NCBI GenBank assembly: GCA_903928915.1
Contig: CAIYSL010000072.1
Span: 1-36,349 of the forward strand
Direction: 5' to 3'
Length of the DNA: 36,349 nucleotides
DNA from: an uncultured Syntrophobacterales bacterium
GTDB lineage: Bacteria > Desulfobacterota > Syntrophia > Syntrophales > UBA5619
Shown: piece by piece, positions 3,948-13,720 of the stretch
How positions within the stretch are numbered: position 1 is the first letter of the stretch
Layout: each line of letters begins with the position of its first letter
Notes under the pieces: model-generated
What the model saw: only the letters and a program-made list of their open reading frames with translations
Told to the model about the DNA's origin: nothing
Database searches by the model: none
Made by a program: the position numbers and the translations under genes

Positions 3948-4415
3948 ATGAAAAAACTCTTTGTTCTTGTCACGATATCCGTACTGTTTACCTTTGGATG
4001 CGCCCACAGAGAAGCTGCCACGATAAGACCCGCAGAAAAGCCGGTGGCCAAAGTCGATGCCATCAAAGCGGGCAAAGAGGAGGGGACGATCGACAGACAA
4101 TTCTTCAAAAAGATCGTGGCCGATAAACCGGTGAACGTATCGCTCGTCGATGTACGGACAAAATTCGAGTACGACGCAGGTCACTTTGACGGCGCCAGAC
4201 ACCTGTTCATCAACGACCTCTTCGACAAGGGATGCGCTGCTACCCTGGCCCGGCTTCCCCAAGACGGGTTTATCGTGTTTGTCTGTGCTACCGGCGCGAG
4301 GGCCGGCGAAATGTACTTCGAGATCAAGGATAATTGCAAATACGGTGATATCGAAAAAATGTTTTTTCTGGATGTCGAAGTTGCCTACACACCCAAAGGT
4401 CCGGTAATCAAATAG
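3948..4415 (+). CDS. Rhodanese-domain lipoprotein
   Basis: The 155-residue product has a lipobox-like signal (LFTFGC, Cys 18), so it is probably anchored to a membrane. A single rhodanese domain covers about residues 55-150, with VSLVDVRTKFEYDAGHFDGA followed by the active-site loop VFVCATGARAGEM, which matches the C-X-x-G-x-R catalytic pattern. It probably carries sulfur as a persulfide or binds an oxyanion outside the cytoplasm. Rhodanese lipoproteins beside multiheme cytochromes occur in Geobacter outer-membrane conduit and selenite/tellurite uptake clusters; that parallel is suggestive only, because no porin gene is adjacent here. It is the last gene before the hairpin terminator at 4426. 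Confidence 0.8.
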   Translation: MKKLFVLVTISVLFTFGCAHREAATIRPAEKPVAKVDAIKAGKEEGTIDRQFFKKIVADKPVNVSLVDVRTKFEYDAGHFDGARHLFINDLFDKGCAATLARLPQDGFIVFVCATGARAGEMYFEIKDNCKYGDIEKMFFLDVEVAYTPKGPVIK

Positions 4416-4785: not shown

Positions 4786-6165
4786 TTACGCGGATTCGAC
4801 GCCGTCGTCGCGGCGGTTTGCCTGACTCCATGCCTGGGCGGCCATTTGCACGGGATCCCAGGGGCTTGAGAGCGGCGGCGTGTAACTGAGATCGAGGTCG
4901 TTCAGAGACTCCACGGTCATGCCGTTATGAATGGCCGCCGCCACCGTATCGATGCGTTTGGAAACCTCGGTGCCGTATGCACCGATGATTTGCGCACCCA
5001 GCAGTTTGCGGGTTTTTTGATCGCCGGTGATCCGGATTCGCATTCTTTCGGCGTGCGGGTAGTAGACCTTGTGATCCCACGTTTCAATATCCACCGACAG
5101 GGGGGAAAATCCTTCCTCCCGCGCTTCATCGTCCTTCAGGCCGGTTCGTGCGGCTACCAGATTGAAAATCTTGACGGATTGGGTTCCCAGCGTGCCGGCA
5201 TATTCCCGGTTTCCCCCGACTGCATTTTCGCCGGCGACACGGCCCTGTTTATGGGCGGTGGTGCCCAAGGGAAGATAGGTGCTTTTCCCCAGCAGCCGGT
5301 GATAGGTCTCCGCGCAATCGCCGGCTGCATAAATATCCGGGACACTGGTCTCCATTCGCCTGTTGATGCGAATTGCGCCTTTAACGCCGGTTTCAATGCC
5401 GGCTGCTCGGGCCAGACCGGTCTCCGGCCGGCTGCCGACCGCCACCAGCACCATGTCTGCGGCAATGGTGTCGGCTGCGACCGAGCGCACGGAAAGTCGG
5501 TCTTTGCAGGATTCGATCCGCTCGACGGCAAAGCCGCTGAAAACCTGAACGCCTTGCCGCTCCAGTTCGGTCCGCACGATGCCCCCCAGCACCGGATCAA
5601 AGGTTGTGAGAACGGACGGTAAAAATTCGACCACGGAAACTGAAAGCCCTCGATGGATCATGGCGTCGGCCATTTCCATGCCGATATACCCCGCGCCGAT
5701 GATGACGATAGAGGTCGGACGACGAGAGGTGAGATATTTCTGCAAGGCAAAACTATCCGCCATCCAGCGGAGAAAAAAGACGCCCGGCAGATTGATGCCG
5801 GGTAGATGCGGTACAAGGGACATGCCTCCGGTGCCGATCACCAACTTGTCGTAGGGAAAGGTCTTGCCGCAGCCTTCCGCATCGGTGGCGAGAACCTGTC
5901 TCCGGTCCGGGAGGATCGCCGTGACGCGATGATCAGGAAATAGCCGGATGCCCCTTTCTTCAATTTCAGCGGCGGTTCGATGGGCCAGGGTCCTCCAGTC
6001 GGAGATCTCGCCGCTCAGATAAAACGGAAGCCCGCAGATGCTGAAATTGGGATACCGGTCCGCCAGGATCAGGGTGATTCCCGTATCGGGAGACAACTCC
6101 CTGGCGCGGAGGCTGGCACTGATTCCGGCATCGCTACCGCCAATGACCACCATCCTTTTTTTCAT
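4786..6165 (-). CDS. FAD-dependent disulfide oxidoreductase, CoA-disulfide reductase/NADH oxidase-like
   Basis: I place the start at ATG 6165 (minus strand, GAGGT-type site), giving 459 residues and leading directly into the FAD-binding motif VVIGGSDAGISASLRA. Upstream in-frame codons would add about 84 unrelated residues. NFSICGLPFYLSG places the redox-active Cys at residue 44, as in CoA-disulfide reductases and NADH oxidases. A second Rossmann motif (VIIGAGYIGMEMADAM) binds NAD(P)H, and YAAGDCAE is the second FAD contact. The C-terminal dimerisation domain is present, without the extra rhodanese domain some relatives carry. The gene diverges from arsR, so it is probably co-regulated with metalloid resistance; a role in thiol recycling or reduction of a metalloid-thiol adduct is inference. 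Confidence 0.85.
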   Translation of the reverse strand: MKKRMVVIGGSDAGISASLRARELSPDTGITLILADRYPNFSICGLPFYLSGEISDWRTLAHRTAAEIEERGIRLFPDHRVTAILPDRRQVLATDAEGCGKTFPYDKLVIGTGGMSLVPHLPGINLPGVFFLRWMADSFALQKYLTSRRPTSIVIIGAGYIGMEMADAMIHRGLSVSVVEFLPSVLTTFDPVLGGIVRTELERQGVQVFSGFAVERIESCKDRLSVRSVAADTIAADMVLVAVGSRPETGLARAAGIETGVKGAIRINRRMETSVPDIYAAGDCAETYHRLLGKSTYLPLGTTAHKQGRVAGENAVGGNREYAGTLGTQSVKIFNLVAARTGLKDDEAREEGFSPLSVDIETWDHKVYYPHAERMRIRITGDQKTRKLLGAQIIGAYGTEVSKRIDTVAAAIHNGMTVESLNDLDLSYTPPLSSPWDPVQMAAQAWSQANRRDDGVESA

Positions 6166-6209
6166 CGTGATATACCTCGCGAAAACGACGGAACGAACTA
6201 TCAATAGAG

Positions 6210-6226
6210 ATACTGAATTACAGTAT
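6210..6226. promoter_or_regulatory. Inverted repeat in the flavoprotein/arsR divergent region
   Basis: ATACTG and CAGTAT are perfect 6-base arms around a 5-base AT-rich centre (AATTA), 45 bases upstream of the flavoprotein start. Position and base content fit an operator for a dimeric regulator controlling the leftward gene. ArsR itself is the obvious candidate. Confidence 0.5.
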
Positions 6227-6299
6227 ATCATGCTGTTCAGACTATTTCGAACGCCCTCCAGCTTCAAAATCCCCCGCGAACATGGCCGTAAAGATTCAC

Positions 6300-6328
6300 T
6301 TGACATGGCCTCCGGCGCCAAGTATATT
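6300..6328 (+). promoter_or_regulatory. Near-consensus sigma70-type promoter of arsR
   Basis: TTGACA (6300-6305), a 17-base spacer and TATATT (6323-6328) form an almost ideal housekeeping promoter. The -10 box ends 27 bases before the arsR ATG at 6356, leaving a short leader that contains the GGAGGGG ribosome site. It probably drives arsR and the downstream efflux genes. Confidence 0.8.
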
Positions 6329-6355
6329 CCTTCCGGGAAATATGGAGGGGACGGT

Positions 6356-6706
6356 ATGAAGGAATTCATCAAGGTCATGAAGGCGCTTTCCGATCCCAAT
6401 CGCGTGTTGCTTGTCAAGATGCTTCAGAAAAGGACAATGTGCGTCTGCGAAGTCCAGGCCGCGCTGGGGATAGCCCAACCCACCGTTTCCAAACACCTGA
6501 AAATACTGGAAGGCGCGGGGCTTGTGGGGCGGAAGAAGGAAGGGCTCTGGGTGAATTATTCCCTGACCGACGGCGGCCGCAGCCCCTACGCGGCGAGCCT
6601 TCTGGGAAACCTGATGCACTGGCTCACCGATGATCCGACGGTCAGCGACCTGATCGAGAAGAGTGAAGCGATTCGGCGGGAGGACCTCTGCGGCACCCAT
6701 GGTTGA
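6356..6706 (+). CDS. arsR: ArsR-family metalloid-responsive repressor
   Basis: The product has 116 residues, starting at ATG 6356 behind GGAGGGG. It shows the full ArsR/SmtB order: an N-terminal helix with LSDPNRVLLVKML, then TMCVCEVQ with Cys29 and Cys31. These match the alpha-3 CVC arsenite site of E. coli ArsR. The recognition helix is QPTVSKHLKILEGAGLV and the wing is GRKKEGLWVNYSL. The C-terminus adds one more Cys (DLCGTHG) that could complete a three-thiolate site. Binding of As(III) or Sb(III) would release it from DNA. A near-consensus promoter lies upstream, and palindromes lie on both sides of the gene, at 6210-6226 and 6710-6735. The neighbouring acr3 supports the arsenic assignment. 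Confidence 0.9.
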   Translation: MKEFIKVMKALSDPNRVLLVKMLQKRTMCVCEVQAALGIAQPTVSKHLKILEGAGLVGRKKEGLWVNYSLTDGGRSPYAASLLGNLMHWLTDDPTVSDLIEKSEAIRREDLCGTHG

Positions 6707-6735: not shown

Positions 6736-6774
6736 ACCTAACCAAACCGCCGCTGAGTGAGCGAGGAGTATCGC

Positions 6775-7854
6775 ATGTCTGAATGTTGCACAAAAAACGC
6801 CCCCCCAGGGCCTGTCACTATCCGGACAAAACCCGAAGCGGCTAAGACGCAGGGATGGTGGCTCGCGCTGCTCATTCCGGTCTTCGTTCTGCTCTACCTG
6901 TCGCTCGAACAGGGAACGGATTATCTGGTCTATTCGCTCATGGGAATGGACCGGAAGTCTCCCCTGGCCGCGGCGGTGTGGTTCTTCCTCTTTGAAGTGC
7001 CTAAAGTGCTCCTGCTCCTGACGGCCATCGTGTTCGTCGTGGGGATCATCCGCTCGTACTTTTCCCCCGAAAAGACGAGAAAGGCGCTGGAGGGGAGGCC
7101 ACTCTTTCTGGGCAATGTTATGGCGAGCACGCTCGGGATCGTGACCCCCTTCTGCTCCTGTTCAGCCATCCCCCTGTTCATCGGGTTCATGGAAAGCGGC
7201 ATCCCGCTCGGCGTCACCTTTTCCTTCCTCATCGCCGCGCCGATGATCAACGAAGTGGCGCTCGTGCTTCTCTTCAGCCTGTTCGGGTGGAAGACGGCGC
7301 TCCTGTATGCATCCACAGGTCTGCTGATCGCCATTGCCGCAGGCTGGATTATCGGCAGGCTCAAGGTGGAACGGTTCGTCGAGGCCTGGGTGTATGAAAT
7401 CAAGGCCGCGGAACTCGTGATCGAGGAGCGGGAAACGCCTTTTTCCGAAAGGGTCCAGGCCGGGTATCGGGCGGTCGCGGATATCGTCTCGAAGGTCTGG
7501 ATCTACATCGTGATCGGCATTGCCGTCGGAGCCGGCGTCCACGGGTATGTGCCGGAAAATTTCATGGCCTCCCTGATGGGCAAATCCGCCTGGTGGTCCG
7601 TGCCCCTGGCGGTGCTGATCGGCGTACCGCTCTATTCGAACGCCGCCGGGATCATCCCTATCATCCAGGCCCTTCTGGAAAAGGGGGCTTCGCTCGGCAC
7701 GTCGCTCGCCTTCATGATGGCGGTGATCGGGCTGTCGCTGCCGGAGATGATCATCCTGAAGAAGGTCCTCAGACTCCCCCTGATCCTGATTTTTATCGGC
7801 GTCGTCGCCTCCGGCATCATGGCCGTCGGGTACCTGTTCAATATGGTCTATTAG
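6775..7854 (+). CDS. Permease of the ArsP/UPF0718 (DUF318) family
   Basis: I prefer ATG 6775 (after GCGAGGAG) over the in-frame GTG at 6757; the product is then 359 residues. It has about eight to nine hydrophobic segments and the signature TPFCSCSAIPLFIGF in a membrane helix, with a second PLYSNAAGIIPI segment in the repeat half. This family includes ArsP, which exports trivalent organoarsenicals, and related permeases linked to other metals. The CSC motif may bind the thiophilic cargo. An N-terminal cytoplasmic SECC adds two Cys. Its place between arsR and a thioredoxin-like gene plus acr3 supports a role in arsenic handling, but the exact substrate cannot be read from the sequence. Confidence 0.85.
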   Translation: MSECCTKNAPPGPVTIRTKPEAAKTQGWWLALLIPVFVLLYLSLEQGTDYLVYSLMGMDRKSPLAAAVWFFLFEVPKVLLLLTAIVFVVGIIRSYFSPEKTRKALEGRPLFLGNVMASTLGIVTPFCSCSAIPLFIGFMESGIPLGVTFSFLIAAPMINEVALVLLFSLFGWKTALLYASTGLLIAIAAGWIIGRLKVERFVEAWVYEIKAAELVIEERETPFSERVQAGYRAVADIVSKVWIYIVIGIAVGAGVHGYVPENFMASLMGKSAWWSVPLAVLIGVPLYSNAAGIIPIIQALLEKGASLGTSLAFMMAVIGLSLPEMIILKKVLRLPLILIFIGVVASGIMAVGYLFNMVY

Positions 7855-7903
7855 CGCCAGGAAGCGACAGAGGTAACACAGTCGACACGAGGGAGGCGGG
7901 CAT

Positions 7904-8137
7904 ATGGATATCAAAATTCTGGGTATCGGATGCGCGAAATGCCAACAGCTGGAGAAGATGGTCAGAGCGGCGGTCGCGGAATGCGGCGCCGAAGCCGCAG
8001 TCGAACATGTGACGGATTTTAAACGGATCGCCCAATACGGCGTGTTCGGCACCCCGGCGGTAGTCGTCGACGGCACGGTCAAGTCCGTGGGGAAGATTCC
8101 CAAGAAGGAGGAGATCCTCGCCTGGCTGAAGAAATGA
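7904..8137 (+). CDS. Thioredoxin-fold mini-protein ('redox-active disulfide protein 2' type)
   Basis: The 77-residue cytoplasmic protein begins at ATG 7904 after GGGAGG. The motif GIGCAKC (Cys10, Cys13) sits at the end of the first beta strand as in thioredoxins and glutaredoxins, and [12 protein letters not shown] supplies the cis-proline loop. Such mini-thioredoxins often accompany DUF318 permeases and acr3, where they may reduce the permease's thiols or pass the metalloid to it. It lies between the permease and acr3 with gaps of 49 and 25 bases, so co-transcription is likely. Confidence 0.85.
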
Positions 8138-8162
8138 AGGGACGCCCTGTACGGAGGACACT

Positions 8163-9266
8163 ATGACTGACGGAATCGCAAAACGACTCTCGTTTCTGGA
8201 CCGCTACCTGACACTCTGGATCTTCCTGGCGATGGCGGCGGGCGTGCTGCTGGGGTATTTCGCCCCCGGCGTGGGCGACTGGATCGGGTCGTTGCGACCC
8301 GCGGGGACCCAGACCAGCATCCCGATTGCCCTGGGTTTGATCCTGATGATGTACCCCCCGCTCGCCAAGGTGAAGTACGAGGAGTTGGGCGACGTGTTCC
8401 GGAATTTCCGGGTGCTGGGGCTGAGTCTGCTGCAGAACTGGCTCATCGGGCCAGTCCTGATGTTCCTGCTGGCGATCCTGTTTCTGCACAACCAGCCGGA
8501 GTTCATGATCGGCCTGATCATGATCGGTCTGGCGCGGTGCATCGCCATGGTCATCGTCTGGAACGACCTGGCCCGGGGCGACTGCGAGTATTGCGCGGGG
8601 CTGGTCGCCTTCAACGCGGTATTCCAGGTCCTCTTCTACAGCCTCTACGCCTGGCTGTTCATCACCGTCCTGCCGCCGCTGATCGGCCTGTCCGGGGCCG
8701 TGGTGCAAATCACGATCGGCCAAATCGCCGAGAGCGTCTTCATCTACCTCGGCATCCCGTTCCTGGGAGGGATGAGCACCCGGTTCCTCCTGGTGAAGCT
8801 GCGCGGGAGGGAGTGGTACCAGCAAACGTTCATCCCCCGGATCTCCCCGCTCACGCTGGTGGCGCTCCTGTTCACGATCGTGGTGATGTTTTCCCTGCAG
8901 GGCAAGAAGATCATCGAATCACCCGGCGACGTGGCCCTGATCGCCGTGCCGCTGTTGATCTACTTCATCGTGATGTTCCTGGTGAGCTTCTGGATGAGCG
9001 CGAAGGCGGGGGCCGATTATGCCAGGTCGGCGACGCTCTCCTTCACCGCCGCCAGCAACAACTTCGAGCTCGCCATCGCGGTTGCCGTCGGCGTCTTCGG
9101 GATCAACCACGGGGCCGCCTTCGCCGCGGTGATCGGCCCGCTGGTCGAGGTTCCCGCGCTGATCGGCTTGGTCAACGTGGCCCTGAAGATCAAGGAAACG
9201 TATTTCCCGGGCGCGGAGGGCTCCCCGGCCACGATCTGCCGCATCGAGGCGAAGCGGTGCGGTTGA
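8163..9266 (+). CDS. acr3: Arsenite efflux transporter, Acr3 family
   Basis: The 367-residue protein has about ten transmembrane helices and begins at ATG 8163 behind [22 protein letters not shown] contains the Cys (about residue 126) conserved in Acr3 and required for arsenite transport. [17 protein letters not shown] near residue 300 is a second family signature. The length is typical. It exports As(III) as arsenite at the cytoplasmic membrane, driven by the proton gradient. Together with the CXC-type ArsR upstream it defines this region as an arsenic resistance operon. The C-terminal tail carries a short Cys-containing extension ([12 protein letters not shown]) that could be a cytoplasmic thiol site. 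Confidence 0.92.
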
Positions 9267-9310
9267 ATGGACGGTCGGGCGCGATGGGGAATGGGTAACG
9301 GTCGGCGGCT

Positions 9311-10417
9311 ATGGATGAACTGAGCAAGATCTACGTCGAGCCGACCAACCGCTGCAACCTCGAATGCGTGACCTGCATCCGCCATGCCTGGGACGAACCG
9401 CTGGGGGACATGGCGTGGTCTGTCTATCAAAGCTTGATCGACGGTCGGGCAGATTTCCCGGAAGCGAAGACGATCGCCTTCGCCGGCCTGGGCGAACCGC
9501 TCCTCCACGAACGATTCCCCGCGATGGTCGGCCTTGCCCACGAACGGGGGCTGCGGACGGAGATGACGAGCAATGCCCTGCTTCTGACACCGGTGCTCGC
9601 CGCGCGGCTGGTCGAGGCCGGACTCGACCAGTTCACCGTCTCGGTCGACGGGGCATCCGGCCCTTCCCACAGGGCAATCCGGCCCGGGGCGTGTTTGGAG
9701 ACGATCACGGCCAACGTCCAGATGCTCCACCGGATGAGCGCGGAGGCGTGCGCAACGCCGCTCAAGATCGGGATCGAATTCGTGGCGATGCGGCGCAACC
9801 TCCACGAGCTGCCCGCACTACGGGAAATCGCCGACCGGCTCAGGGCTTCCTTCATTCTCGTGACGAACGTGATGCCCTACACGGCCGAGCTGAGGGACGA
9901 GATCCTCTACCATATGGGGCCGACCAGCCACGACGGCGAGGGGGCGCCGTACAACCCGCTCTGGATACTGCCCCACATCGACTGGACTCGGGAGACGGAG
10001 GGGCCGTTGTCCGCCGTCATGCGCCACCGGCCGAAGTTGAGTTTTTTCGATACCGGTCCGGCCCAGCGGAACAACTACTGCCCCTTCGTCCAGGCCGGGA
10101 GCATGGTCGTGGCCTGGCACGGCGGCGTCAGCCCCTGTCCGGCCCTGCTGCACTCGTACCACTGCTTCATCCGGAGCCGTCCGAAGTTCTTCCGCCGCTG
10201 CGAGTTCGGCCGGCTCCCCGGGCGGAGCGTGAGGGCGATCTGGACGGACCCGGCGTATGCCGCCTTTCGCGAGCGCGTCCGCCGGTTCGACTTTTCCCCC
10301 TGCACCGATTGCGGCGGATGCGACCTGGGCGAATCGAACGAGGAGGATTGCTTCGGCAACCCCTTCCCCGTCTGCGGAGATTGTCTGTGGGCACGCGGCA
10401 TCCTGCGCTGCGCCTGA
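9311..10417 (+). CDS. Radical SAM protein resembling tungsten-cofactor oxidoreductase maturases
   Basis: The 368-residue protein carries the radical SAM cluster motif at once: VEPTNRCNLECVTC, with Cys15, Cys19 and Cys22. FAGLGEPLLH and LDQFTVSVDG are further AdoMet-radical barrel motifs. The C-terminal ~60 residues are Cys-rich (CTDCGGCDLGES, then CFGNPFPVCGDCLWARGILRC) and should bind auxiliary Fe-S clusters in a SPASM-like domain. The opening 'EPTN.CNL.C.TCIR..WDEPLG' and the closing 'CGDCLWARGI' are what I recall from radical SAM proteins next to tungsten aldehyde ferredoxin oxidoreductases. No such oxidoreductase gene is visible in this window; the gene sits inside the arsenic island. No clear ribosome site precedes ATG 9311. 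Confidence 0.8.
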   Translation: MDELSKIYVEPTNRCNLECVTCIRHAWDEPLGDMAWSVYQSLIDGRADFPEAKTIAFAGLGEPLLHERFPAMVGLAHERGLRTEMTSNALLLTPVLAARLVEAGLDQFTVSVDGASGPSHRAIRPGACLETITANVQMLHRMSAEACATPLKIGIEFVAMRRNLHELPALREIADRLRASFILVTNVMPYTAELRDEILYHMGPTSHDGEGAPYNPLWILPHIDWTRETEGPLSAVMRHRPKLSFFDTGPAQRNNYCPFVQAGSMVVAWHGGVSPCPALLHSYHCFIRSRPKFFRRCEFGRLPGRSVRAIWTDPAYAAFRERVRRFDFSPCTDCGGCDLGESNEEDCFGNPFPVCGDCLWARGILRCA

Positions 10418-10516
10418 AGGATAAGGCGTACCGGCTTTCCCTGCTGCGGCACGATCGACGCACCGTTACGGGATGGATTTCTGACAAATAAGACGAAAAG
10501 TGAGGTATGATGGGTG

Positions 10517-10903
10517 ATGAACATGAATAATGCGGCTCTTAAGATCGGTATCTTCGGCCTGGTACTTCTCCTGATGCCCGCAGGGCCGGCGGTCCGTGCT
10601 GCCGCGGCGGCGGAGTCCCCTGTCAAGGGGATGGTCACGATGGTCGACCTGGGCGCCAAGAAATGCATCCCCTGCAAGCTGATGGCGCCCATCCTTGCGA
10701 AGCTGGAAAAGGAGTATGCCGGCAGGGCAGCCGTGGTCTTCTTCGACGTCTGGGAAGACCCTGAACCGGCCAAGCGGTTCGGCATCCGGACGATCCCGAC
10801 GCAGATCTTCTTCGACAAAGAGGGGAAGGAGGTCTACCGGCACCAGGGGTTTCTCGGCGAGCAGGAGATCGTCCAGCGGTTCAAGGATATGGGGGTAAAA
10901 TAG
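10517..10903 (+). CDS. Exported or membrane-anchored thioredoxin
   Basis: The frame allows GTG 10514, ATG 10517 or ATG 10523; I use 10517 because a TGAGGT element lies about 10 bases upstream. The 128-residue product starts with a hydrophobic segment (about residues 8-30) that acts as signal peptide or anchor. The thioredoxin domain has CIPC (Cys50, Cys53), FFDVWEDPE and the cis-proline loop RTIPTQIFF. It is expected to work outside the cytoplasmic membrane as a disulfide reductase. The adjacent CcdA-like gene, 16 bases away, would supply its electrons. Its target may be a periplasmic protein of this island or c-type cytochrome maturation. Confidence 0.85.
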   Translation: MNMNNAALKIGIFGLVLLLMPAGPAVRAAAAAESPVKGMVTMVDLGAKKCIPCKLMAPILAKLEKEYAGRAAVVFFDVWEDPEPAKRFGIRTIPTQIFFDKEGKEVYRHQGFLGEQEIVQRFKDMGVK

Positions 10904-10919
10904 GATTGAGAAGGCATCC

Positions 10920-11627
10920 ATGCTGACGACCCTTTTTCTGACGATAAACGAATGGATCACCGGCGCAACCGCCCTGGCGGCGCTCGGCTGTTTCCTCTGG
11001 GGGATGGTGAGCGTCCTGATGAGCCCCTGTCACCTGGCCTCGATACCGCTGATCGTGGCCTACGTGGCCGGACAGGAGCGGGCCCTCAAACCGAAGCAGG
11101 CGGCGCAGTACGCCGTTCTGTTCACCGCGGGGCTGTTCATCACGATCGCCCTGATCGGCGTCGTCTGCGCGCTCCTCGGGCGGATGCTCGGGGATGTCGG
11201 TTCTTACTGGCAGGTCATCGTGGGGCTCGTGCTGGTGTGGGTCGCCCTGGGGATGCTCGGGGTGGAGCGGTGCACCCTCTCCGGGACCTGGCTGCACCGA
11301 CTGAACGTGAAAGGGTTCGGCGGCGCATTCACCCTGGGCCTGGCGTACGGCGTCCTGTCCGGCTCCTGCACCTTCGGGTTCATCGCCCCGATACTGGCGA
11401 TCATCACGATCCAGCAGAAGGTCCTGACCGGGATGACATTGATCGGGCTGTTCGCCCTGGGGCACTGTCTCCCGATCGCGGTCGCCGGCAGCTCCACCGC
11501 TGCGGTCCGGCGCCTGACGGAGAGCGAAACCTGGATCGGGTCGGGAGGCTGGTTTCGCAAGAGCGCCGGGGTCGTCATCGCCCTGCTGGGGATCTACTTC
11601 ATCGGCAGCCCCTTTCTGATCGGATGA
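10920..11627 (+). CDS. CcdA/DsbD-type membrane thiol carrier
   Basis: The product has 235 residues and about six transmembrane helices. The two redox Cys typical of CcdA are in place: SVLMSPCHLASIP (Cys37) and LSGSCTFGFIAP (Cys150), both followed by or next to helix-breaking Pro. CcdA proteins carry reducing equivalents from cytoplasmic thioredoxin across the membrane to exported thioredoxins. The exported CIPC thioredoxin gene directly upstream is the natural partner, forming a two-gene transmembrane thiol relay. A GAGAAGG site precedes the ATG. CcdA usually serves cytochrome c assembly; its place inside a metalloid operon suggests another target, which is inference. Confidence 0.88.
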   Translation: MLTTLFLTINEWITGATALAALGCFLWGMVSVLMSPCHLASIPLIVAYVAGQERALKPKQAAQYAVLFTAGLFITIALIGVVCALLGRMLGDVGSYWQVIVGLVLVWVALGMLGVERCTLSGTWLHRLNVKGFGGAFTLGLAYGVLSGSCTFGFIAPILAIITIQQKVLTGMTLIGLFALGHCLPIAVAGSSTAAVRRLTESETWIGSGGWFRKSAGVVIALLGIYFIGSPFLIG

Positions 11628-11649
11628 GTCCACCCAAGGAGTCTCGCGC

Positions 11650-12717
11650 ATGAAATTCATGGAAATCGCCCAGCACTTCAGCCCGGTGTGGTTTGCCGCG
11701 GTCATGGGGACGGCGGTCATCCCCCTGGTCCTGTCTCTCCTCGGCCTTCCGCTGATGGAATCCCTGGGGGTACTCTTTTTCTTCCTGGCTGTGCTGATGT
11801 TCCTGTTGGCCCTGGCGCCCTGGTCGGTGAAGGTGCTGCTGTTCCGGGAAAACGTCACGAAGGACCTCAACCACCCGGTGGCGGCCCATTTCTTCCCGAC
11901 CATGCCGATCGCGCTGGTCATCCTGGCGCTGGATTTTCTGAGATATCCAGATTTGTTCTTCTCCCCCGGGACATCCCGCATCATCGCCTTCTGGCTCTGG
12001 CTCTGCGGCTCCCTGGGCATCTATCTGTTCGCCTACCTGATCCTGATCCGCGTGTTTAGCCACCGGGAGATCACGCCGGCCCACGCCAACTTCGGCTGGT
12101 TCATCCCCCCGGTCTCCAAGATGATCATCCCGGTGGCCGGCCTCGAGCTGGCCGAGCTGTTTCCCGCTCAGCTGGAATTGACCTTCGGGCTTTCGCTGGT
12201 CAGCTTCGGCGCCGGGCTGTTCCTGTTTCTGTTCGTCGGGGCTGCCGTCTACCACCGCTACATCTACCATGAACTCCCGATGAGCCGGCTGGCGCCGACC
12301 TTCTTCATCGGCATGGTCCCCACGGCGATCATCGCCGCCATCCTGTTCAAGATGATCCACCTCTTCGCCAGCCGGGACGTGCTGGGGATCGCCCCCCAGG
12401 CCTTTACCTCGGTGGCGAAGATCGCGATCCTGATCTGCTGGGGGTTCTCTGCCTGGTGGTTCGTGATGGCCTGCATCGTGATCCTCTACTACATAAAGCG
12501 GATCGAACTTCCCTTCGCGATGAGCTGGTGGGCCTTCACCTTCCCGTCGGGCGCCCTCGGCATCGCCTCGGCCGTGGCCTGGAAGGTCTCGGGGTTTGTC
12601 TCGATCTACTGGTTCTTCCTCCTTGCGACCCTCTTTCTGCTCGGCGTCTGGCTGATCGTCTTTCTCCAGACCGTCCGCGGGATCGCCTCGGGCAAGCTCT
12701 TTCTCCCCGCGCACTGA
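11650..12717 (+). CDS. TDT-family transporter (tellurite-resistance/dicarboxylate, SLAC1-like)
   Basis: The protein has 355 residues with about ten transmembrane segments and starts at ATG 11650 after AAGGAG. FSPVWFAAVMGTAVIPL at the N-terminus and MSWWAFTFPSGALGIAS near residue 290 are hallmark motifs of the TDT family, which includes TehA, malate permease Mae1 and plant SLAC1 anion channels. It should move an anion across the cytoplasmic membrane. Members are often labelled tellurite-resistance proteins, but the physiological substrate of most is unknown. Its position between the thiol relay and a metal exporter argues for a metalloid or sulfur oxyanion; this is contextual inference only. 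Confidence 0.85.
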   Translation: MKFMEIAQHFSPVWFAAVMGTAVIPLVLSLLGLPLMESLGVLFFFLAVLMFLLALAPWSVKVLLFRENVTKDLNHPVAAHFFPTMPIALVILALDFLRYPDLFFSPGTSRIIAFWLWLCGSLGIYLFAYLILIRVFSHREITPAHANFGWFIPPVSKMIIPVAGLELAELFPAQLELTFGLSLVSFGAGLFLFLFVGAAVYHRYIYHELPMSRLAPTFFIGMVPTAIIAAILFKMIHLFASRDVLGIAPQAFTSVAKIAILICWGFSAWWFVMACIVILYYIKRIELPFAMSWWAFTFPSGALGIASAVAWKVSGFVSIYWFFLLATLFLLGVWLIVFLQTVRGIASGKLFLPAH

Positions 12718-12736: not shown

Positions 12737-13720
12737 ATGGAACACAGCCACGCCCACAACCACCATGAACCGCCGACCTCGCTGACAAACCTCCTGCTGG
12801 CGATCGTGATCAATGGCGGCATCGTCGCCGCCGAGCTCACGGTCGGCCTGTTGATCGGGAGCATGGCGCTCGTCTCGGACGCCGTCCACAACCTGAGCGA
12901 CATCGTGCACATGCTGTTCAGCTACTGGGCGGAAAATGTCGCCCGCCGCCCGGCAACCGCGGCGAAGACCTACGGCTACCGGAAGATCGAATTCATCGCC
13001 GCCTTCGTCAACAGCATCGGGCTGTCCGTGGTGATCGCCTTCATCTTCTGGGAGAGCCTGAAGCGGCTGGCCTCGCCGGCGGAGATCCCGGGCACCGAGA
13101 TGCTCCTGGTCGCCGCGGCGGCCTTCATCGGCAACGGCGCGGCAACGCTGCTGCTGCAGAAGATCTCGGCGCGGAACATCAACATCAGGAGCGCCTGGCT
13201 CCACTCGCTCCAGGACGCCCTGTTTTCGCTGGCCGTGATCGTCGGATCCCTGACGATCATCCTGTTCGGCTGGACGATCGTGGACCCGCTCCTGTCGCTG
13301 GCCATCTGCCTGGTGATCGCCCGGCAGATCGTCAAGATCGTCCGGCAAACCGTGGATTCGCTCCTCGACGCGGTCCCGGCCGGCGTCGACGCGCGCGCGG
13401 TGCGCAGCGACCTCGCGGCGATCGACGGCGTGCAGGAGGTCAACGACCTGCACATCTGGGAGGGAGGCGCCGACCAGCGGCTCCTGTCCGCCCACCTCGT
13501 CACCCGGGGGGCGGCCGACTGCGCAGCGATCATCCGTTCGGCCCAGGAACTCCTCCTGCACCGCTACGGGATCAACCACACCACGCTCCAGCTCCTGCCC
13601 GACACGGCCGGAGCGATGGAGCACTGCAGCCATTGCACCTGGGGTACGAACGAAGGGACGACCTGCACTCCGCAGGGCCGGGCTCCGGCATCCCCGGATG
13701 CAGAGGCGCCGCGGGATTGA
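12737..13720 (+). CDS. Cation diffusion facilitator (CzcD/ZitB-like metal exporter)
   Basis: The 327-residue protein starts at ATG 12737 after AAGGGAGGT. It has a His-rich N-terminus (HSHAHNHHE), six transmembrane helices and the metal-site motifs SDAVHNLSDI in helix 2 and HSLQDALFSL in helix 5. These match the HxxxD/DxxxD sites of zinc-type CDF exporters. A C-terminal cytoplasmic domain (EVNDLHIWEGG... HLVT) follows. The last ~40 residues are unusual: EHCSHCTW then another Cys, a thiol-rich tail not found in standard CzcD. The protein exports Zn(II)-like divalent cations in exchange for protons. It is the last gene of the rightward resistance operon, and a new promoter begins 14 bases after its stop. 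Confidence 0.9.
   Translation: MEHSHAHNHHEPPTSLTNLLLAIVINGGIVAAELTVGLLIGSMALVSDAVHNLSDIVHMLFSYWAENVARRPATAAKTYGYRKIEFIAAFVNSIGLSVVIAFIFWESLKRLASPAEIPGTEMLLVAAAAFIGNGAATLLLQKISARNINIRSAWLHSLQDALFSLAVIVGSLTIILFGWTIVDPLLSLAICLVIARQIVKIVRQTVDSLLDAVPAGVDARAVRSDLAAIDGVQEVNDLHIWEGGADQRLLSAHLVTRGAADCAAIIRSAQELLLHRYGINHTTLQLLPDTAGAMEHCSHCTWGTNEGTTCTPQGRAPASPDAEAPRD

Follow-up and report, generated by a model that had tools for sequence, protein, structure and literature searches.

Genes of the arsenic island and the radical SAM protein

The stretch of DNA analyzed here (the window, 36,349 nucleotides, which is the whole of contig C72 of genome G000) contains nine co-directional genes on the forward strand, arranged as arsR-arsP-arsE-acr3-rSAM-trx-ccdA-tdt-cdf, with intergenic gaps of less than 100 bp from acr3 to the end of the cluster. 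The first codes for an ArsR/SmtB repressor (positions 6356 to 6706), recognized by profile matches, with the ATG at 6356 (the point at which the sister island L240 begins to align) as its start; its CVCEV motif is presumably of the type that binds As(III). It is followed by an ArsP-type permease (6757 to 7854; PF03773, 244.7 bits), whose likeness to SaoE and to the SO_0444 efflux protein stays below their cut-offs, and by a small thioredoxin of the arsE/MTH895 type with a CAKC motif, which the earlier note did not mention (7904 to 8137; TIGR00412, 98.2 bits, cut-off of 62). Next to the radical SAM gene, the earlier note had placed acr3 and a thioredoxin/CcdA pair, and these are indeed its neighbors: the arsenite efflux transporter Acr3 upstream (8163 to 9266; TIGR00832, 441.5 bits, cut-off of 282.8) and, downstream, a thioredoxin with a hydrophobic, signal-like N terminus (10514 to 10903) and a ccdA/DsbD-type transmembrane electron carrier (10920 to 11627), both identified by NCBIfam/Pfam profile matches. 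Profile matches also identify a SLAC1/TehA-type (tdt) transporter (11650 to 12717), which has no counterpart aligned here in the three sister islands described below, and a CDF cation efflux transporter (12737 to 13720), which ends the island. Outside it, a CoA-disulfide-reductase-like flavoprotein is coded divergently (4786 to 6417, reverse strand), and a rhodanese-domain gene is found at 3948 to 4415.

A sigma-70-like promoter sequence (TTGACA-17-TATATT, 11/12, positions 6300 to 6328, forward strand) lies just upstream of arsR, as a match to the consensus and not as evidence of function, and terminator-like sites on the forward strand fall within genes, with none between the genes of the cluster. 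Given this layout, the shared direction of the genes, and the CVCEV motif of the repressor, the radical SAM gene is likely to be induced by As(III).

The radical SAM/SPASM gene itself (9311 to 10417, forward strand) codes for a protein of 368 amino acids with the Pfam domains PF04055 (Radical_SAM, 48.7 bits) and PF13186 (SPASM, 38.3 bits), both above their cut-offs. As it can also be aligned from end to end with 65 relatives and gives a confident predicted structure with a SPASM fold (pLDDT of 87.8, pTM of 0.89), we consider the open reading frame to be real. The motifs quoted earlier for this protein are present, EPTNRCNLECVTCIRHAWDEPLG at the N-terminal start and CGDCLWARGI at the C-terminal end. 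The CX3CX2C motif (CNLECVTC) corresponds to C15, C19, and C22, and nine further cysteines are located in the SPASM and C-terminal regions (C257, C276, C331, C334, C337, C347, C355, C358, and C367). All 12 are invariant or nearly so in the 66-sequence alignment and would be enough for three [4Fe-4S] clusters. The structure closest to the model is BlsE (Z of 22.9, rmsd of 3.2 over 277 residues), and the other best matches, SuiB, a sactipeptide enzyme (5why), and anSME, differ from it by no more than about 2 Z units. Assigning a function by fold was discarded, as enzymes acting on proteins, on peptides, and on small molecules are all among the matches, and the comparison of folds is not decisive about the substrate.

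Many relatives of this protein, AOR-linked (that is, linked to tungsten aldehyde oxidoreductases, AORs) and arsenic-linked alike, begin with about 50 extra residues of the AbrB/MazE type fused to the radical SAM/SPASM protein (at positions 7851 to 8012 of locus L036 and at 24 other loci). PF04014 matches 23 of the 25 N-terminal segments at an E value of up to 0.1 (best, 3e-7), and a profile built from the segments matches AbrB structures at about 1e-4. The domain occurs in many members of both the TIGR04317 and the window-type groups described below and is missing from the window protein, its nearest relatives, L069, L118, and L121; its absence there suggests that recognition of a substrate or partner may have changed.

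A separate clade recurring in arsenic islands

The earlier note had recognized a kinship to the radical SAM maturases of AORs and proposed a comparison with family models and a phylogeny. The best NCBIfam match is indeed TIGR04317 (W_rSAM_matur), with 264.7 bits over positions 2 to 348 of the 349 in the profile, which falls short of the curated cut-off (380), followed by TIGR04311 (rSAM_Geo_metal, a putative metalloenzyme maturase), with 231.9 bits and a cut-off of 400. Nine other window-type members score 213 to 330 bits against TIGR04317, and the ten AOR-type members of the phylum score 397 to 455. In a tree of 72 rows rooted with TIGR04311, from which the outgroup rows L140 and L011 (mis-framed) were left out, the window protein falls in a clade of 60 rows (support, 96/87), apart from the ten TIGR04317 rows, which are themselves a weakly supported group (81/54); its own subclade has eight members (100/100). 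The large clade is marked by the signature PCxxCGGC...NEEDCFGN, with a CX2CX2C spacing (CX2CXC in L019 and L020) that is usually followed by NEEDCFGN, while the TIGR04317 rows have CX2CX5C, so that the spacing of the SPASM cysteines differs in all the members compared. By these sequence criteria, the window type appears as a distinct subfamily that is named by none of the curated models searched.

The relatives were collected by a genome scan with patterns from the window protein, giving 55 loci in a sample that may be biased, and by a search of the phylum, where 18 genomes had relatives and ten had TIGR04317 proteins over the cut-off. We called a locus arsenic linked when acr3, arsP, or arsC was found within 7 kb. 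This was the case for 29 of the 60 window-type loci and for none of the ten TIGR04317 loci (p of 0.004), while linkage to an AOR was seen at 7/60 and 7/10, respectively (p of 0.00025), counts and p values that are indicative, given the kinship among the rows and the shortness of some contigs. Another 6 of the 60 had an ArsR-type gene alone nearby, and 18 had no ars, ArsR, or AOR gene. By record name, the arsenic-linked members belong to Thermodesulfobacteriota, Chloroflexota, Actinomycetota (Thermoleophilia), Aminicenantota, Bacillota, and Spirochaetota, although the hosts are mostly metagenome-assembled genomes and single phylum assignments could be binning errors. Seven of the eight members of the window's subclade are arsenic linked, and the eighth (L117) lies beside ccdA and DsbA-like genes.

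A check blind to the neighborhood, in which 90 genomes of the window's order were searched for Acr3 and separately for the window protein, gave the same picture. The window-type gene was present in 8 of them and lay in an ars island in 7: six members are within 5 kb of Acr3 (p of about 5e-14, assuming that about 0.35% of the genome is so close, i.e., 10 kb of about 3 Mb with one Acr3), that of G660 (L258) is beside ArsP and a DsbA-like gene, and that of G291 is the exception. Conversely, no Acr3, ArsP, ArsC, or ArsR was found in a null set of 69 AOR loci (340 kb) from the same kinds of genome. The recruitment to an arsenic setting that had been supposed for this gene is therefore widespread, and the window protein, outside the AOR-linked TIGR04317 group, recurs in ars operons, but the description of the gene as stranded was misleading, as it is in arsenic islands that the subfamily is most often found. 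Because relatives recur in arsenic clusters across several phyla, their distribution points to a so far undescribed job in coping with arsenic.

Comparison of 30 Acr3 islands of the order indicates that the gene is an accessory one. The three nearest islands (L238, L239, and L240), from the same family and with acr3 genes 84 to 86% identical in DNA, contain arsR, arsP, arsE, acr3, trx, and ccdA in the window's order without the radical SAM gene, and the acr3-trx stretch measures about 140 bp in L238 versus about 1250 bp in the window. The gene occupies the same site in L017 and L018 and is found elsewhere in the island in L115, L116, L118, L121, and L251; it thus stays in arsenic islands though its place in them changes. 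In G687, the island lacks the gene, and a TIGR04317-like gene (judged by look and not by a family-model score) adjoins an AOR instead (L260).

Several loci have other arrangements. In Chloroflexota (L035, L039, and L068), a cassette of ArsR, GcvH-like, DGC-domain, and OsmC-like proteins lies upstream of the radical SAM gene. In Aminicenantota-type loci (L041, L044, L046, L049, L052 to L055, and L063), the gene has an ArsR-family gene on one side and an ABC ATPase plus a SufBD-like gene on the other, with a beta-lactamase-family gene upstream. A second, partial copy follows on the contig in G274 (L122/L032). In L022 (Deltaproteobacteria bin85), an in-frame TGA interrupts the window-type gene at 8715 to 8717; a selenoprotein reading was rejected, as the codon does not align with a cysteine of the window protein, and a mutation or sequencing error is likelier. 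Four ars islands of the same order carry another SPASM radical SAM protein (CNASCRYCPRT) downstream of acr3 (L233, 12295 to 13344; L253, 1935 to 3074; L255, 6611 to 7660; L256, 14172 to 15311), and those of L255 and L256 score 133 to 172 bits against TIGR04311 and TIGR04317.

Tungsten oxidoreductases and the possible role of the protein

The earlier note had found no AOR in the window, which holds for the whole contig, and had offered that the enzyme of this putative maturase might lie elsewhere. That much fits the data, as the genome codes for 14 AORs in other places, at least one AOR was found in each of the 57 host genomes tested (a few of which also have the TIGR04317 type or have it in place of the window type), and AOR-adjacent members with the same signature nest within the window clade, all of which argues against a clean break with tungsten. 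Among the genomes of the phylum, AORs occur in 313/395 overall and in 18/18 of the carriers (p of 0.014), and among Chloroflexota, they occur in 90/201 overall and in 14/14 of the carriers (Fisher p of 7e-6); in 7 of these 14, the contig that carries the gene also has an AOR close to it. The co-occurrence is confounded, as AORs and SPASM enzymes both favor anaerobes. Four of the AOR-adjacent members (L034, L036, L037, and L043) adjoin ThiS-like genes, and for the ThiS-like WorX, a role in the biosynthesis of pterin for tungsten oxidoreductases has been predicted (PMC13328260). None of the 29 arsenic-linked members has an AOR within 7 kb, and a single partner AOR was discarded, since in an AOR tree of 95 rows, the AORs of arsenic-linked genomes are scattered and have no clade in common.

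Our preferred reading, to which we give a probability of about 0.4, is that the protein is an arsenic-induced maturase or repair enzyme acting in trans on AOR-type enzymes. As an accessory gene of the ArsR-controlled island, it would be expressed in response to As(III); the SPASM radical SAM enzyme would generate a 5'-deoxyadenosyl radical and act on a protein substrate, modifying AOR-type tungsten enzymes coded elsewhere or reactivating their cofactor site, which, being a sulfur-rich metal site, may be attacked by arsenite. We count in favor of such a client the full-length similarity to TIGR04317, including the CGxCLWA segment, the nested AOR-adjacent members and their ThiS-like neighbors, the co-occurrence with AORs, the membership in the island, and a genome in which 14 AORs are coded but no protein exceeds the TIGR04317 cut-off. 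Against it, we count the distance from any AOR at the arsenic-linked loci, the scattered AORs without a shared partner, the confounding by anaerobic hosts, the different SPASM cysteine spacing, the fact that most AOR-bearing genomes carry neither type of radical SAM protein, and the literature searched, which yielded no report of damage by arsenite to enzymes of this class. We regard a client of the AOR type, acted on in trans, as a plausible candidate.

The protein might instead act on arsenic itself, forming or breaking a bond to arsenic in a product that would be exported by ArsP or Acr3, a reading that we regard as the main rival, though less likely. It would account for the tight and recurrent linkage to arsR, arsP, and acr3 despite the changing position within the island, a second, distant group of the superfamily is also found in ars islands (L233, L253, L255, and L256), and ArsL and ArsS already show that radical SAM enzymes can take part in arsenic metabolism (PMC8552651). 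However, the conserved cysteines of ArsL number just three, which makes a single cluster probable (PMC8552651), whereas the window protein has the SPASM set, AOR-adjacent and arsenic-linked members have one signature in common, and no ArsM-type methyltransferase was recognized beside the gene in the window. No ArsS family model is among the best 25 of the 33 NCBIfam matches of the protein, and in the open-license literature, the search for SPASM radical SAM proteins with Acr3 or arsenic returned work on ArsL and ArsS and unrelated papers. Taken further, and with about one chance in four, this reading would make the arsenic-island subfamily a further class of arsenic radical SAM enzymes beside ArsS and ArsL, with a radical reaction on arsenic or on an arsenical that has not been described so far, and with the second group separately recruited for related chemistry.

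More doubtful is a reading in which the enzyme modifies a protein coded by the island (for example, the neighboring thioredoxin or that of the ArsE type) or some other thiol protein of a Trx/CcdA/DsbA relay. The trx gene directly follows the radical SAM gene in the window, L017, and L018, and many members have trx, ccdA, and DsbA-like genes around them, but the sister islands without the radical SAM gene have the same thioredoxin and ccdA genes, and no single island protein accompanies every member. The closest solved folds include the peptide and protein modifiers SuiB and anSME, although the small-molecule enzymes BlsE and BtrN are among them too. L117, where we found no ars gene, also fits this reading, its gene lying in a ccdA-DsbA-VKOR-like operon. 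This likely operon (7760 to 12692) comprises the window-type gene, VKOR-like, DsbA-like, ccdA, and methyltransferase-like genes, and a second radical SAM gene. Least probable of all is that the gene is cargo with an arsenic-unrelated job traveling with mobile arsenic islands, since its presence or absence in closely similar islands and the 18/60 clade members without ars, ArsR, or AOR genes nearby are set against a linkage that persists across phyla and across positions and is absent (0/10) from the AOR-linked sister group.

Arsenic metabolism has few known radical SAM enzymes, and to our knowledge, the function of the tungsten-linked maturases is uncharacterized. A subfamily that is found in ars islands of several phyla and is cleanly present in or absent from very similar islands offers an experimental handle on both. 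It would lead either to a way of transforming arsenic in anoxic environments that is new or to the finding that arsenic stress and tungsten enzymes are directly linked.

Comparison with known radical SAM enzymes

The characterized SPASM/twitch enzymes BlsE, SuiB, anSME, PqqE, and MoaA have the overall fold in common with the window protein but are about 20% identical or less and act on other substrates; in the literature searched, we found no biochemistry of the window type. ArsL and ArsS are radical SAM enzymes of arsenic metabolism as well, involved in arsinothricin and arsenosugar synthesis, respectively, but the window protein, with its SPASM domain and nine conserved cysteines beyond those of its CX3CX2C motif, belongs to another family than ArsL, which has three, and is not of the ArsL type. 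TIGR04311, the outgroup of our tree, is part of the same superfamily. The closest known system is TIGR04317, the tungsten cofactor oxidoreductase radical SAM maturase, which is homologous over the full length, has both the radical SAM and SPASM domains and the C-terminal CGxCLWA segment, and, like the window-type group, includes members with the AbrB-like N-terminal domain. The window protein differs from it in scoring below the cut-off, in its separate clade, in having CX2CX2C in place of CX2CX5C, in the lack of the AbrB-like domain throughout its subclade, unlike the TIGR04317 group members that carry one, and in having the arsenic island, and not an AOR, as its usual neighbor.
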